A stretch of DNA of 57,196 nucleotides, taken from NCBI RefSeq assembly GCF_001436255.1, contig NZ_AZEI01000002.1:1-57196 (forward strand), given 5' to 3'. The translations under genes were made by a program, and so were the position numbers. This DNA is from Lentilactobacillus rapi DSM 19907 = JCM 15042. Lineage in GTDB: Bacteria; Bacillota; Bacilli; Lactobacillales; Lactobacillaceae. Shown in pieces: positions 25,684 through 47,925 of this stretch (position 1 is its first letter; each line of letters starts with the position of its first letter). A model generated the notes under the pieces. That model worked only from the letters and a program-made list of their open reading frames with translations, was not told the origin of the DNA and did no database searches.

Positions 25684-26355
25684 ATGGTATTAAGTCCACA
25701 AGACATTCACAACAAAGAATTTTCGACCAAATTAAGAGGTTACAATATTGATGAGGTTAATGATTTCTTAGACCAAATCATTAAAGATTACCAAATTGTC
25801 CTTCAAGAGAATAAGGATCTCTCATCGAAACTTGACGAGTCCAAGGACAAATTATCCTATTTCAATGATTTGAAAGATTCTTTAAACCAATCAATTTTGG
25901 TTGCCCAAGAGGCTGCTGATAAGGTTAAGACCAACTCTAAGAAGGAAGCCGAAATTACCAACCGGGAAGCCCAAAAGAAAGCTGACGACATTTTGAATGC
26001 CGCTGACGAAAAGGCTAATAATATTCTGGAAGAAGCTTCCAAGCGAGCTAAGAAGTTGGCTATCGAGACTGATGACTTACGGAAGAATACCAGAGTTTTC
26101 CGCCAACGGCTCCAAGTGATGTTGGAAAGTCAGCTTGAAGTGATCAAGGGATCAGATTGGGATCATCTGGTTGAAGAAACCCCAACGACGACTTATGAGG
26201 ACATCGAAAAAGTTGTTGGCAGCCTTGACAACCACACAAATTCAGGGTTAAAATCAGAAACCAAACAGGATAATGATGCGGACACGGTGGTAGATGCAAC
26301 AACGACCGAGGATCCAAGCAAAACGGTTGTGTATTACCCCAACGACGCAAAGTAA
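25684..26355 (+). CDS. divIVA: Cell division/polarity protein DivIVA
   Basis: Coiled-coil protein that binds negatively curved membrane at poles and septa and recruits partners. The 223-residue product has the conserved N-terminal lipid-binding part (SPQDIHNKEFSTKLRGYNID) and a long coiled coil (about 30-150), then an acidic, threonine-rich variable tail. It closes the dcw cluster; the T-box leader of ileS follows directly, with no clear terminator between. Confidence 0.94.
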   Translation: MVLSPQDIHNKEFSTKLRGYNIDEVNDFLDQIIKDYQIVLQENKDLSSKLDESKDKLSYFNDLKDSLNQSILVAQEAADKVKTNSKKEAEITNREAQKKADDILNAADEKANNILEEASKRAKKLAIETDDLRKNTRVFRQRLQVMLESQLEVIKGSDWDHLVEETPTTTYEDIEKVVGSLDNHTNSGLKSETKQDNDADTVVDATTTEDPSKTVVYYPNDAK

Positions 26356-26369
26356 ATATTTTGAATCGA

Positions 26370-26556
26370 TTAGAGACCAGAAAGTTTATTGGTTGACACG
26401 TAAGCGAGCTAAAGATGGTGAAAGTTTAGCAGTCAACAATCAATGAATAGATCAGCTCTAGTACATAAATCGATTGCTTTTAGAGAGAATTGCAAAATTC
26501 TAAATTTGGGTGGTACCACGAAGAGTCTTCGTCCCTAGCGGCGAGGGCTCTTTTTG
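26370..26556 (+). promoter_or_regulatory. T-box leader (isoleucine) of ileS
   Basis: Classical T-box riboswitch. The T-box motif AAATTTGGGTGGTACCACG is at 26502-26520, followed by a terminator hairpin with TTTTT (to 26555). Stem I can fold through GGTTGAC and GTCAAC. On its 3' side AATCA places ATC, an isoleucine codon, at 26439-26441 as the likely specifier, in agreement with the downstream ileS. Uncharged tRNA-Ile would favour the antiterminator and read-through. Confidence 0.9.
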
Positions 26557-26561
26557 TTAGA

Positions 26562-26671
26562 GTGCGAAAAGCAACGGGTTGACGCGTTTACCTGGGAACT
26601 TCTCATTGAAATCCTGGGTTTGGATTTTAATGAGAAGTTCCCAGGTAGTTAGCGTCAGTTGCTCTGAGCAC
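26562..26671 (+). repeat. Large palindrome P1 in the ileS leader
   Basis: Two arms of about 45 bases face each other around a 21-base loop. TACCTGGGAACTTCTCATT (26589-26607) pairs perfectly with the complementary arm at 26629-26647. Outside it, ACGC/GCGT, AGCAAC/GTTGCT and GTGC/GCAC extend the fold. It starts only six bases after the T-box terminator's T tract. No ORF in it looks coding. Confidence 0.8.
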
Positions 26672-26782
26672 GTTTCCACTAGGTGGCCGAGAATAGAATC
26701 CTGGTTTTGGGATTTATGTTGGCGGTGCTTATGTGGAAACTTGTGCTTGGAGAAGCACGTTTCCACTAGGCAGCCAAAGATT
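26608..26782 (+). repeat. 175-bp tandem repeat, unit 1
   Basis: First full unit, beginning GAAATCCTGGGTTTGG. It contains the right arm of P1, a second palindrome (AGCACGTTTCCAC at 26667-26679 against GTGGAAAC...GTGCT at 26733-26747), and the small hairpin GTGCTTGGAGAAGCAC (26743-26758). Confidence 0.9.
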
Positions 26783-26957
26783 GAAATCCTGGGTTTGGAT
26801 TTTAATGAGAAGTTCCCAGGTAGTTAGCGGCAGTTGCTCTGAGCACGTTTCCACTAAGTGGCCGAGAATAGAATCCTGGTTTTGGGATTTATGTTGGCGG
26901 TGCTTATGTGGAAGCTTGTGCTTGGAGAAGCCCGTTTCCACTAGGCAGCCAAAGGTT
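26783..26957 (+). repeat. 175-bp tandem repeat, unit 2
   Basis: Second unit at exactly 175 bp from the first, differing at only about six positions by eye (for example GTCAG to GGCAG, GGAAAC to GGAAGC, AGCACG to AGCCCG). The near identity implies recent duplication or continuing homogenisation. The length is not a multiple of three, which argues against coding. Confidence 0.9.
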
Positions 26958-27010
26958 AAAATCCTGGGTTTGGATTTTAATGAGAAGTTCCCAGGCAGCT
27001 AGCGGCTGAG
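26958..27010 (+). repeat. 175-bp tandem repeat, partial unit 3
   Basis: About 50 bases of a third unit, again 175 bp on, ending near GCTAGCGGCTGAGCA. After it, a unique leader of about 85 bases runs to the ileS start. Confidence 0.85.
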
Positions 27011-27094
27011 CATGTTTCCATGACCCAATTCAAGAAAAACCACCGGTCCCATCATTATCCTGAAAACAAACAATTTAAGAAGGGAAGTCAAACA

Positions 27095-29908
27095 ATGCGG
27101 GTAAAAGATACATTAAACCTAGGCAAAACAAAGTTCAAAATGCGCGGCAATCTTCCTGTTAAAGAAGTCGACCGACAAAAAGCATGGGACGAAAATCATG
27201 TTTATCAACAAAGACAAAAATTAAATGAGGGCAAACCAACCTTTGTCCTCCACGATGGCCCTCCATATGCCAATGGTGATATCCATATGGGTCACGCGAT
27301 GAATAAAATTTCAAAGGATATTATCGTTCGATACAAGTCAATGAGTGGTTATCGGGCACCTTACGTTCCCGGTTGGGACACTCATGGATTACCAATTGAA
27401 CAAAAATTAACCCAAGCTGGTTATGATCGTAAGAAAATGTCCACTAACGATTTCCGAAAGCTCTGTCGTGAGTATGCCTTGAAGCAAGTTGAACGTCAAA
27501 AGGCAGAATTCAAACGACTGGGAGTTGCCGGTGATTGGGATAATCCTTATTTGACTTTGAAACCTGAATTCGAAGCTCAAGAAATTCGGGTGTTTGGCGC
27601 ATTTGCAAAACGTGGGTTGATTTACAAGGGTAAGAAGCCCGTTTACTGGTCATGGTCGTCAGAATCTGCTCTTGCCGAAGCCGAAGTTGAATATCACGAT
27701 ATTACTTCCCCAACTGCCTTTTATGGCGAAAAAGTTGTTGATGGAAAAGGCGTCTTAAATAATGACACAACATTCATGGTTGTCTGGACAACGACGCCAT
27801 GGACGATTCCAGCTTCTGAAGGAATTACCGTTGATGCTGGATTTGACTATTCAGTTGTTCAACCAGAGGGTGATGACCGTCACTTTGTGATTGCCAGTGA
27901 ATTGGTCAACAAGGTTTCTGAATTGGTTGGCTGGAAGAATGTTAAGACTCTCAAAACGGTTAAAGGCCAAGAGCTTGAGGGCGTTCTTGCAGAACACCCA
28001 TTTGATCATAGTCGAAAATTATTGACGATGTTAGGCGACTTCGTTGATTTGGAAGAAGGTACTGGATTAGTCCATACCGCTCCTGGATATGGTGAAGATG
28101 ACTTTAACATTGGCCGCAAATATGGGCTTGATATTTTTGCGCCAGTTGATGATAAAGGGTATTTGACTGAAGAATCCGGTAAAGACTTTGCTGGGGTCTT
28201 CTATGATGACGCCAACAAGATTGCCTTGGATAAATTAAAAGAGGCTAATTTGTTACTCCGATACATGCCGTTGAAGCATAGCTACCCATTTGACTGGCGA
28301 ACCAAGAAGCCGATCATCTTCCGGGCAACGCCTCAGTGGTTCGCCTCAGTTGATAAGATCAAAGACGATATTTTGAAATCGCTTGACGACGTTCAATTCT
28401 TCCCTGATTGGGGGAAAGTTCGCCTCGCCAACATGATCAAGAACCGGGGCGACTGGGTTATCTCCAGACAACGGGTTTGGGGTGTGCCGCTACCAATCTT
28501 CTATGGTGAAGACGGTGAAGCGATTATCACTGAAGAAACCATCAACCACGTTGCAGATTTGTTCGAGAAGCACGGTTCAGACATTTGGTTCGAAAAGGAT
28601 GCCAAAGACTTATTACCAGCCGGCTTTAAGAGCGAGCATTCACCAAATGGCAAGTTTACCAAAGAAAACGACATTATGGATGTGTGGTTTGATTCAGGTT
28701 CATCTCATCAGGGGGTTCTTGAGGAAAGAGACGATTTAACTTATCCTGCTGATATGTACTTGGAAGGCTCCGACCAATATCGTGGCTGGTTCAATTCAAG
28801 CCTGATTACCAGTGTTGCTGTTTCGAACAAAGCACCGTATAAACAAGTCTTATCACAAGGATTCACCCTTGATGGTCAAGGCCACAAAATGAGTAAATCA
28901 CTTGGAAACACAATTGCGCCAATTGACGTGATTAAGAAGATGGGAGCAGAAATTGTCCGTCTCTGGGTTACATCAGTTGATACTTCCGCTGATGTTCGCG
29001 TAAGTACTGAAAACTTCGTGAAGGTTTCAGATTCGTATAAGAAGATCCGCAACACGATGCGTTACTTACTTGCCAACGTTTCCGACTTTGATCCAAAGAA
29101 GGATGCTGTGCCATTTGATCAATTGGAAACTCAAGATCAATACATGATGATTCTATTGAACAAGTTCTTGGGAGAAGCTCGTGATTGTTACGAAAAGTAC
29201 GACTTCTTGGATTTGAACAAGAAATTAATTAGTTTCATCTCAACTGATTTGTCGGCATTCTATCTGGATGTTGCCAAGGATATTGTGTATATTGATCGCA
29301 AGGATGGCCACAAGCGTCGTTCAATGCAAACAGTAATGTATGACGCAGCTGTGACCTTAACTAAGTTAATGACCCCAGTGTTACCTCATACGACCGAGGA
29401 AATCTGGCCATTCTTGAAGGAACCCGAAGAATTCGTTCAGCTGACGGACATTCCAGAACCACAACACTTTGACAATGATGCAACAATCTTGGCAAACTGG
29501 AACAAGTTCATGACTTACCGAAACGATGTCTTGAAGGTGCTTGAAGAAGCTCGGGACGCCAAGCAGATTGGTAAATCCTCAGAAGCCAAATTGACGATTT
29601 ATGCCACGTCAGAGGTTGCTGATTTGTTTGAAAGCCTCCACACCGATTTGGCAACTGTCCTGATGGTTTCTCAGTTGGAAGTTACCGACTTCACTGACGC
29701 GCCAGGTAACAGCACGAAGTTTGACAGTGACGGCCTGGCATTGTTAGTTGAAAAGGCCGATGGTCAAGTTTGTGAACGTTGTCGGTTGACGAAAACCGAT
29801 GTTGGTGCTGATAGCGACTACCCAACATTCTGTCAATCATGTGCGGAAATTGTCCGTAGTGAATTCCCTGAAACCGCTACTGAAGGTTTTACAGACAAGA
29901 AAGATTAA
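27095..29908 (+). CDS. ileS: Isoleucyl-tRNA synthetase
   Basis: Charges tRNA-Ile with isoleucine and edits valine. The 937-residue product shows the HIGH-class motif [16 protein letters not shown] near residue 57-72, the editing region ([11 protein letters not shown]), KMSKS near residue 598, and a C-terminal zinc finger CERC...CQSC. I start at ATG 27095 behind GAAGGGAAG. An upstream in-frame ATG at 27020 lies right at the repeat edge and would add 25 residues that do not look like IleS. Regulated by the T-box upstream. Confidence 0.95.
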
Positions 29909-33233: not shown

Positions 33234-33577
33234 TGGCATTTTCAAAGACTGCGCAAGCAAACGGTGATCAACAAACTTACCAGATTAGCGAGGGGATTAA
33301 GCGGTATACCCTTAAAGATTTAGGCTTTATTGAAACCAAAGCCGGCAATTTCTCGCTAGATCGCTCATTAGATCCAAATTCTCCATATAACGCCGGCTAC
33401 AAGTTTAAAATGATGGTTTCTAAAGACTTGGATGGCTTCAGAATGTCCATCACCACTGGCAACGGCCTTAAGAAAGTGAATATCTTTAAGGACGATGCAA
33501 CTGCGGACAGTGTTGAGCAATATAATTTCATTATTAATAACTTGATTGATCGTGACGTGATTAAACGAGCTGATTAG
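33233..33577 (+). CDS. DUF1831 family protein
   Basis: A 114-residue DUF1831 protein, small and soluble, whose function is not established. It overlaps the cysteine desulfurase stop by one base (TAATG) behind GGGGGTGAAG, so the two are co-translated. In related lactobacilli, as I recall, this pair is followed by mnmA; here mnmA is 13 kb away. A role with the desulfurase in sulfur transfer is inference from position. Confidence 0.85.
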   Translation: MAFSKTAQANGDQQTYQISEGIKRYTLKDLGFIETKAGNFSLDRSLDPNSPYNAGYKFKMMVSKDLDGFRMSITTGNGLKKVNIFKDDATADSVEQYNFIINNLIDRDVIKRAD

Positions 33578-33599
33578 TTGTGATTTTGGAGAGATTGGG

Positions 33600-33720
33600 A
33601 CGAAAGGCGATTTGATCCCAGAATTTAAGTGAAAAAAGTAATGCATTCTGGTTTTTGGAATGCATTACTTTTTTGCTTAAATTCTGGGATCAGCCGTTTG
33701 TCGCAAGTTTTATCAATATA
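33600..33720. repeat. Intergenic hairpin element, copy B (terminator)
   Basis: GATCCCAGAATTTAA (from 33614) pairs with TTAAATTCTGGGATC (33677-33691), and the tip AAGTAATGCATTC (33636-33648) pairs with GAATGCATTACTT (33658-33670), giving a nearly perfect stem of about 36 bp with a T tract. The base and tail (CAGCCGTTTGTCGCA) match copies A and C, but the tip sequence is different on both arms. Confidence 0.85.
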
Positions 33721-39696: not shown

Positions 39697-40011
39697 ATAA
39701 TTAGTAAATCTTAATAAAATAAAGTTTTGATTAGAACAAGTAGCCAGTGAAGAATGACAAGAGAATCCCGTTGCTGTGAAGGGATCATTCTGCTGGTGAA
39801 CACACATCTATGAACTTAACCGGTTGAACCAAGTAGGCCGATTCGCATGTTTAGCGTTATCAGGGTTGCCACAGCTGTTATGAAAATGACGAGTTGTTGG
39901 CAACGTAAGGCATTCTATCGTGAGGTAGGTGCGAATTGAGGTGGAACCGCGATTAATCTCGTCCTCGAAGACTTTCTAAAGCTTCGAAGATGTGATCGAT
40001 CGCGGTTTTTT
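39697..40011 (+). promoter_or_regulatory. T-box leader (histidine) of the his operon
   Basis: The T-box motif GAATTGAGGTGGAACCGCG is at about 39932-39950. The terminator stem CCGCGAT (39947-39953) against ATCGCGG (39999-40005) ends in six T. In stem I, helix AGAATGA/TCATTCT and CCAG/CTGG lead to GAACACA, placing CAC (39801-39803), a histidine codon, as specifier. This agrees with the hisZ operon below. Confidence 0.9.
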
Positions 40012-44898: not shown

Positions 44899-45219
44899 AT
44901 GCAGAACTTAGATGAACTATATGAATTAATTTTAGATCGAAAAAACAACCCGAAGCCGGGTTCATATACGGAGTACCTGTTTAATAAAGGACTGGATAAA
45001 ATTTTGAAAAAAGTCGGCGAAGAGTCGACTGAGGTGATTGTCGCCGCAAAAAATGACTCGGACCCGGATTTTATCTTGGAGGTTGCCGATTTGGCATACC
45101 ACGTGGAAGTTTTGATGGCCCAAAGAGGAATTACGCCAGACCAGATTAAAAAGGAACTGGCAAGCAGGGAAGGCAAGAAAAGTTTGACGAAGGATCGGGC
45201 GGAGATTCAAAAATGGTAG
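44899..45219 (+). CDS. hisE: Phosphoribosyl-ATP pyrophosphatase
   Basis: Removes pyrophosphate from phosphoribosyl-ATP, second step of the pathway. The 106-residue all-alpha protein has [16 protein letters not shown] and [19 protein letters not shown], the MazG-like metal site. The ATG follows AGGAGGAATA. In many bacteria hisI and hisE are fused; here they are separate genes, two bases apart. Confidence 0.94.
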
Positions 45220-45220
45220 T

Positions 45221-45278
45221 GTGCGCAGCAAAGCGCTTAGAAGTCGGAACATAAGCAGACTTCTGCTTTGCGGAGCAC
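45221..45278 (+). repeat. GTGC...GCAC palindrome between hisE and hisC
   Basis: GTGC, GCAAAGC and AGAAGTC face GACTTCT, GCTTTGC and GCAC around a 12-base loop: a strong hairpin that begins right after the hisE stop. A short T run follows about 15 bases later. The layout matches palindrome P1 of the ileS leader (GTGCG at one end, GAGCACG at the other). Confidence 0.75.
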
Positions 45279-45381
45279 GATTCGGCTATGTTGCATTTTT
45301 CATCTCACCCAAACATTGCCACTGCCGCCACAATCTGTTACGGTACAACCAATCAATATTTACTAAAATTGGAGGCTCCCT

Positions 45382-46562: not shown

Positions 46563-47702
<1,140 letters not shown>

Positions 47703-47763
47703 TGGAACTGATTTTTAAGCTAGATTTTTATATTTTATTTAAGCTTTTTAAAAACAAGCAGAC

Positions 47764-47925
47764 TGCGACAATCGGCGTTTTGATCCCAGAATTTAACGAA
47801 AAGAACCAATTATTCCTGATTTTGGAATAGTTGGTTCTTTTCGTTAAATGGCCGGGATCAGCCGTTTGGCGCAGCTTTTATCCCAGTGGCTGAGGCGATC
47901 CAAGTGAATGATCATCGATGAAAAA
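47764..47925. repeat. Intergenic hairpin element, copy C
   Basis: Base GCGACAATCGGC (47764-47775) against GCCGTTTGGCGC (47861-47872), then TTGATCCCAGAATTTAACG against CGTTAAATGGCCGGGATCA and the tip GAACCAATTATTCC/GGAATAGTTGGTTC. A conserved tail follows to about 47925. It probably terminates mnmA. One pair differs from copy A within the tip. The remaining space to 48348 holds only a doubtful small ORF. Confidence 0.85.

Follow-up and report, generated by a model that had tools for sequence, protein, structure and literature searches.

What is the palindromic, repetitive DNA that separates the T-box leader from ileS in Lentilactobacillus rapi DSM 19907, and does it serve ileS? The window analyzed here is a stretch of 57,196 nucleotides to which unprefixed coordinates refer. 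A preliminary description of it had read this region as a T-box leader lengthened by palindromic repeats, recently duplicated or maintained, that any read-through transcript would carry, possibly as a second control layer. The locus contains:

25684–26355, forward strand: DivIVA-domain gene 5' of the ileS leader (ORF of 223 aa; TIGR03544 DivI1A domain, 59.7 bits, cut-off 22)
26369–26539, forward strand: T-box leader RF00230 (cmscan, 53.6 bits, E 8.3e-11), with a terminator hairpin and a T-run to about 26558
27095–29908, forward strand: ileS with its likely start at 27095 (ORF 27020–29908; TIGR00392, 952 bits, cut-off 621)

The proposed order of a T-box before the array and ileS after it holds. 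The RF00230 match covers the full model length, but at 53.6 bits against a gathering score of 93; the sequence contains a motif of the GGGTGGTACC type, here GGGTGGTACCACG, and a hairpin with a T-run (by eye) and ileS lie downstream. Judged from the sequence, the ileS start is more likely 27095 than 27020: a purine-rich stretch lies just before 27095 (by eye), and alignments with ileS relatives mostly begin at residue 17–26, some at 8–12, and that with L. dabitei at 1. The sole promoter-like site 3' of the T-box, at 26935–26962, is a 9-of-12 match, and a search for terminator-like sites between the T-box and ileS found none; there is therefore no clear sign that the array lies outside the ileS transcript, and a read-through transcript should carry the repeats, as had been supposed. 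A second T-box leader, at 39718–39969 on the forward strand, scores 93.2 bits, above the Rfam gathering score, and stands ahead of an ORF at 39992; no match to R1, the covariance model introduced below, lies beside it.

The array and the elements that compose it are as follows:

26605–27006, forward strand: 175-bp tandem array of 2.3 copies (TRF, period 175, 96% matches; repeat search)
26559–26682, forward strand: intact hairpin element, variant A, AGAGTGC...GCACGTTTCCACTA, with foot P1, stem P2, bulge, stem P3 and 26-bp hairpin P4
26683–26769, forward strand: 5'-truncated variant B copy, ending in a 3' foot at 26753
26770–26857, forward strand: 5'-truncated variant A copy, 3' foot at 26841, 90% to the 3' part of the intact copy
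26858–26944, forward strand: 5'-truncated variant B copy, 98% to 26683–26769, with a weak R1 match of 23.2 bits at 26826–26938
26945–27023, forward strand: decayed 3' part of variant A, 3' foot GAGCATGTTTCC at 27008

TRF and the repeat search both recover the 175-bp unit in 2.3 copies, the latter as two 175-nt copies at 98% and a third of 49 nt. Between the two full units there are 4 mismatches in 175 positions, fewer than the six or so first counted by eye, in keeping with a leader lengthened by recent duplication; between unit 2 and the partial third there are 4 in 52. As described, the palindrome that opens the region is 110 nt long, with GTGC at 26562 pairing with GCAC ending at 26671, and its arms (26589–26614/26622–26647) hold the perfect 19-bp core as 19 uninterrupted pairs. 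The RNA fold of 26562–27030 reaches −204.9 kcal/mol (z −9.4), with none of 100 shuffles as good. The first element begins at 26559, 3 nt past the T-run of the T-box terminator, ahead of the array proper, which starts at 26605. This intact A copy, itself among the 15 units from which R1 was built, scores 106.8 bits (26559–26676, model positions 1–119); over 26559–26682 its RNA fold is at −69.1 and its single-stranded DNA fold has a z of −11. On its sequence, the 175-bp period is one truncated B copy plus one truncated A copy. The copy number at ileS rests on a draft assembly of 87 contigs; an assembly artefact was considered as the source of the array and rejected, given that the array units differ and that similar arrays occur in other assemblies, including that of G001 in 2 contigs.

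The element at 26559 belongs to a family with a common geometry. Among 16 examples folded from this and related genomes, 15 share the fold (L006 deviates, and the inner stem of L007 is weak): a 4-bp foot of GTGC/GCAC, an internal loop of 2–3 nt, a stem of 7–8 bp, a 5'-side bulge of 3–4 nt, a stem of 6–7 bp, a small loop, and finally a hairpin some 26 bp long that is capped by about 7 nt. Elements are about 118 nt long, variant D about 187 bp, and occur singly or in head-to-tail arrays. The feet distinguish variants A and B (AGAGTG), C (AGTGAG...GCTGTCCTA) and E (AGTGTG); those of D are AGATTGGGAC or AGACTGGGAC, and the 3' end of D pairs with its own start. R1 was built from 15 hand-chosen, MAFFT-aligned units, with L006 left out. 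On this model the wrong-strand hairpin, or reverse-strand shadow, of an element reaches 57.7 bits, about E 4e-12 for one genome. The window contains three further elements:

33592–33711, forward strand: variant D copy, 14 nt past a stop codon ending at 33577 (R1 74.2 bits; R1-independent copy)
47760–47879, forward strand: variant D copy, 57 nt past a stop codon ending at 47702 (R1 88.9 bits; R1-independent copy)
45218–45283, forward strand: element with the long hairpin deleted and both feet kept (R1 46.3 bits)

Because 46.3 bits lies below the shadow level, the last of these is assigned by its feet; it opens with the AG of TAG, the stop codon of ORF 44899–45219.

Searching the genome with the array, as the preliminary description had suggested, gave 52 blastn matches across many contigs. 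All 150 of the candidates scored, from a total of 1211, match R1, 148 of them above 64 bits; this is a lower bound on the copy number because 150 of the 1211 were scored and some strong copies found later are absent from that list. Three copy-rich contigs, 392 kb together, hold 89 units (111 matches minus 22 reverse-strand shadows), of which 77 score at least 58 bits; since these contigs were picked for their richness, we extrapolate no genome total from them. The largest contig seen (G000:C12, 534 kb) has 4 of the 150 listed copies, and contigs of 60–175 kb carry many. In one C unit of this genome, at L164 17124–17237, a run of N leaves the unit incomplete.

More widely, R1 matches occur in 20 of 24 genomes of the genus (E ≤ 0.001; one with a single weak match), in 138 of 301 Lactobacillaceae genomes from 23 of 40 genera (E ≤ 1e-6), and in 47 of 395 genomes of the order, 20 of these outside Lactobacillaceae; with 12 candidates scored per genome in the family and 9 in the order, match counts are not copy numbers. 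The best match stays at or below the shadow level in 12 of the Lactobacillaceae genomes with matches and in 9 of the 20 from outside the family, and the model may have found bare hairpins there. Similar feet and bulge are present at five loci of other families, less clearly in L235. Rfam searches of the window, of 26300–27100, of 12 loci and of L164 gave on the elements only microRNA-type or other matches below family cut-offs. We also considered phage or plasmid cargo and set it aside: as blastn queries, the array had no match on 50,697 phages and one variant B copy none on 72,556 plasmids, and part of variant D matches 9 plasmid records from Lactiplantibacillus and Lentilactobacillus.

The stems vary in sequence and keep their pairing. 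In alignments fitted to R1, and so biased towards it, the 89 units of the copy-rich contigs have 92.7% standard pairs, against 66.1% when the 3' letters are shuffled (best of 200, 67.3%), and 18 distinct units from other genera have 92.5%, against 56.7% (best of 500, 61.5%), with 41 of 45 pairs changed on both sides. Including three shadows and one fragment, the alignment from other genera gives 91.7% against 56.8% shuffled, and 33–44% with the structure shifted along the alignment. Covariation extends to the short stems P2 and P3. An alignment-free count, in which hairpins were defined by Watson–Crick pairs only and mismatches had to be flanked by good pairs, found 166 single G.T, 12 A.C and 110 other mismatches in the long hairpins of 193 units, a roughly 14-fold excess of G.T over A.C; counting each sequence context once leaves 91 G.T against 11 A.C. 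For this set identical units were collapsed, 20 of 213 units had no qualifying stem, and orientation was taken from the terminal motifs; inclusion required an R1 match, a possible bias towards G.T. The variant C units of this genome, which mostly lie antisense to the adjoining gene, have 23 G.T and 2 A.C. A double-stranded or repair-made palindrome should give G.T and A.C equally, unlike the counts here. From the excess of G.T in these sequences, we read the fold as real and as selected in one single strand, the sense strand, as RNA or DNA.

The paired changes might instead come from template switching, in which repair copies one arm onto the other and the fold itself is not selected. Eight orthologous units compared with the related genome G003 bear on this reading: five are 92–99% identical, and three, at 71–78%, have replaced stems, a pattern that, like the long near-perfect arms, template switching would explain. 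The diverged three have 44 changed pairs, of which 25 are still standard and 19 are broken in the alignment used, and each G003 unit alone still folds well. Stems thus seem, from these few pairs, to have been replaced in one step more often than to have drifted; the eight were hand-picked, two as the best-fitting units out of arrays, and a clearly diverged D pair at L169:5788 is not among them. Arm copying treats the strands alike, yet G.T outnumbers A.C by the margins given above, in raw counts and in contexts, and the covarying short stems also speak against it. On the mismatch counts we rejected template switching as the source of the covariation, and as an account of the family we regard it as very improbable.

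The elements tend to lie at precise positions relative to genes, whose borders were taken from a simple ORF caller. One of the 66 clusters sampled in this genome lies inside an ORF, a figure favored by the dropping of ORFs that were more than 30% element, or shorter than 90 aa and touching one; that cluster and one without a 3' neighbor were left out, so that 64 entered the position count. A further set of loci from this and other genomes, for which 126 of 158 matches remained after removal of shadows, a duplicate locus and a match that was cut off, and ORFs below 80 aa were dropped too, comprised 93 clusters, 86 of them used. The 5' foot lies at −2 to +5 of a same-strand stop codon in 26 of 42 clusters of the first sample (4.2 expected) and at 39 of 61 further loci (2.4 expected), 65 of 103 combined; in 29 of these 103 same-strand cases the element itself supplies, with its opening two bases, the AG of a TAG stop. 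On the opposite strand, the preferred position is 15–25 nt upstream of a start codon (13 of 22 clusters in this genome, 1.6 expected; 5 of 25 further loci, 0.9 expected). The remainder, 38 of 103 same-strand and 29 of 47 opposite-strand clusters, are positioned elsewhere, and the P-values assume independent clusters, an assumption that orthologous sites violate. Elements also follow switches, namely the ileS T-box and a TPP riboswitch. At L164 16622–17487 a variant A element begins within the end of the TPP riboswitch and is followed by four antisense C units just upstream of the SD of a gene, making this a second regulated leader with elements.

Both occupancy and unit number change between relatives. 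Of 40 site comparisons (20 clusters against G003 and G009), 24 could be placed and the flanks of 16 could not. At L169, the place of a D copy is taken in G003, G009 and G006 by terminator-like hairpins, and a C copy is common to this genome and G003 and absent in G009 and G006. G003 and G009 lack the three-unit C array of L164; with a TATAAT-like promoter before it and the SD of a gene after it (by eye), this array is probably transcribed. Three other arrays number 3, 2 and 4 units in this genome against 1, 1 and 2 in G003. The flanks of the sites with changed occupancy or unit number are 86–95% alike between this genome and G003. At the empty sites compared, no clean target-site duplication was established; TA occurs on both sides of many copies (by eye), and the feet pair over 4 bp only. 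Two leader sites without the element have only small palindromes where it stands in this genome.

These positions and changes also bear on a reading in which the elements are working RNA parts, kept as helpful, with hairpins at stop codons protecting or ending mRNA and hairpins in leaders tuning translation or stability. In its favor are the exactness with which elements abut stop codons or precede SD sites, the selection of a single-stranded form implied by the G.T excess, the promoter-to-SD position of the L164 C array, and the TPP riboswitch with its element and four further units. Moreover, and counting against the mobile-element reading favored below, the stop-codon preference is sharper than neutral insertion and tolerance would produce, so that some function next to stop codons is conceivable. 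However, occupancy and unit number differ from G003 despite the similar flanks, and the antisense-lying C units keep wobbles suited to the other strand. As an explanation of the family as a whole we consider it unlikely, though it is the main rival to the reading favored below.

At ileS itself, we compared 20 loci of the genus, from 19 named Lentilactobacillus and one MAG named only Lactobacillaceae. Seven have an element in the ileS leader by R1, counting one cut by a contig end and one 39-nt remnant; 13 have none by R1, nor do any of the 22 loci from other genera. In the leaders that carry an element, the sequences of the hairpin arms are unrelated to each other (by eye). The nearest named relative by DivIVA (100%) is L. 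dabitei, whose ileS leader contains an intact B copy followed by one truncated A copy. The expectation that close relatives would share the leader arrangement is thus borne out for the presence of an element at this site and fails for the 175-bp array, which L. dabitei lacks; with an identical DivIVA and another arrangement, it indicates that the array was rearranged between close relatives. The repeat unit is a dispersed element, present in the ileS leader of a minority of the genus loci, and not a module specific to ileS as had been implied, and the idea of a second control layer for ileS finds little support. The sense orientation after the T-box terminator, the stable fold and the absence of the array from the relatives' leaders compared count in its favor; against it stand the majority of genus loci without an element in this leader (with a remnant in one more), the unrelated stem sequences where one is present, and the occurrence of the same units at many other places. 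We saw no sign of conservation as a control part at ileS, and judge such a role highly unlikely. Patchy occurrence and unrelated stem sequences argue for an inserted element rather than a conserved regulator.

We therefore favor, as the probable explanation, that the ileS array is debris of a mobile, non-coding, shape-conserved miniature hairpin element. In this model, an ancestor shared by part of the genus would have acquired an element past the T-box terminator; the site would then have gained or exchanged elements and undergone truncations, and in the lineage of L. rapi the 175-bp pair of truncated A and B copies would have been duplicated. We infer that the elements move and that an enzyme mobilizes them. 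Since the one-strand wobbles are kept wherever a copy lies, the fold may serve as the recognition signal for this mobilization, with one strand being read, as RNA or as single-stranded DNA. DNA beside the 5' foot may be lost, either at insertion, as in the one case where a terminator was replaced, or afterwards; only selection on the gene would halt this loss, at a stop codon or SD site, which fits the clustering of elements at both. The elements at ileS would then be passengers in the read-through mRNA, lengthening the leader and having at most a side effect.

Which enzyme might act on such an element? Repeats of the REP type or of a retro-element that depend for movement on a resident Y1 (RAYT) transposase or reverse transcriptase would likewise be many short palindromes in intergenic space with a single-strand signature. 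The genome of L. rapi has one Y1 transposase match. Across the genus, Y1 transposases are present in 7 of 24 genomes and reverse transcriptases in 8 of 24, and neither tracks the element. No Y1 match was found in the element-rich G001, G006, G009, G013, G014, G017 and G022, and six of these (G001, G006, G009, G013, G014 and G022), with 95 to 150 matches each among the matches listed, some of them reverse-strand shadows, have neither enzyme family; conversely, the element-free G018 and G023 have reverse transcriptases. The six genomes mostly refute a resident Y1 or reverse-transcriptase drive, and we give this alternative hardly any credence. The resemblance to REP/RAYT systems extends to high copy number, but the element is much longer than REPs, which are 20–40 bp (PMC3733652), and has no constant tag of the GTAG type before the foot, where the bases preceding AGAGTG vary (89 units, by eye). 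Measured against a MITE, which has the terminal inverted repeats of a known IS and a target-site duplication, the feet pair over 4 bp only and TA flanks many copies on both sides (by eye), with no clean duplication at the empty sites compared.

EFAR, from Enterococcus faecalis, is reportedly a modular repeat of about 170 bp that consists of stem-loops and replaces small stem-loops at its insertion site. In our data one D copy stands in place of a terminator-like hairpin, and the two leader sites have small palindromes only. Efa-1 of this species is given with size 163, copies 65 (18) and a pair of adjacent stem-loops (PMC2267715). Compared by description only, EFAR/Efa-1 and the present family are both structured intergenic repeats; the family described here differs in being one compound 118-nt hairpin with a conserved bulge and feet and hypervariable stems, in overlapping stop codons, and in its spread over a family. 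BOX of Streptococcus pneumoniae is modular, with tandem inner modules of varying number and predicted stem-loops, and its insertions have been discussed as tolerated downstream of genes (PMC3049150). Modularity, varying unit number and stem-loops are shared; BOX, however, repeats an inner boxB between fixed ends, whereas here the repeated unit is the whole hairpin, arranged head to tail across short spacers, and stems vary without loss of pairing. The pneumococcal SPRITE is enriched near gene 3' ends and terminator-like (PMC3049150). It consists of an 18-bp duplex and a U-rich tract, whereas no T-run follows the hairpin in copies of variants A, B, C and E among the 89 units (by eye). By analogy, the nearest described kinds are EFAR/Efa-1 and BOX/SPRITE; we found no recognized account of this family in open-access text, a coverage outside which most subscription papers fall.

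A functional likeness links the element to the attC sites of integrons. In attC, shape is conserved and sequence variable, bases are extrahelical, one strand is used, and the site lies just after a stop codon. All these traits recur here, though we noticed no core boxes, and cassettes are absent. By this analogy it is tempting to speculate that the family is a Lactobacillales-wide, shape-coded mobile element, a one-strand hairpin exchanged or re-inserted at fixed chromosomal sites by a putative enzyme, in the manner of attC sites in integrons. If so, a site would keep its element while stems are swapped whole, extrahelical bases would stand at a fixed distance from the foot, and the AG end could rebuild an upstream stop codon (T+AG). 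We regard this broader reading as doubtful.

A repeat family of at least 150 copies in one genome thus has no Rfam match. Shape rather than sequence is conserved, and plain sequence comparison therefore sees the family poorly. In food lactobacilli it adds long hairpins to the leaders and 3' ends of genes, in unit numbers that shift between relatives, and its placement at stop codons together with the one-strand signature poses a clear question about its mode of movement. For one variant D copy, at L169 16229–16417, two stretches elsewhere in G003 are 95–96% identical and further ones 84–92%, a level of identity that suggests recent activity.
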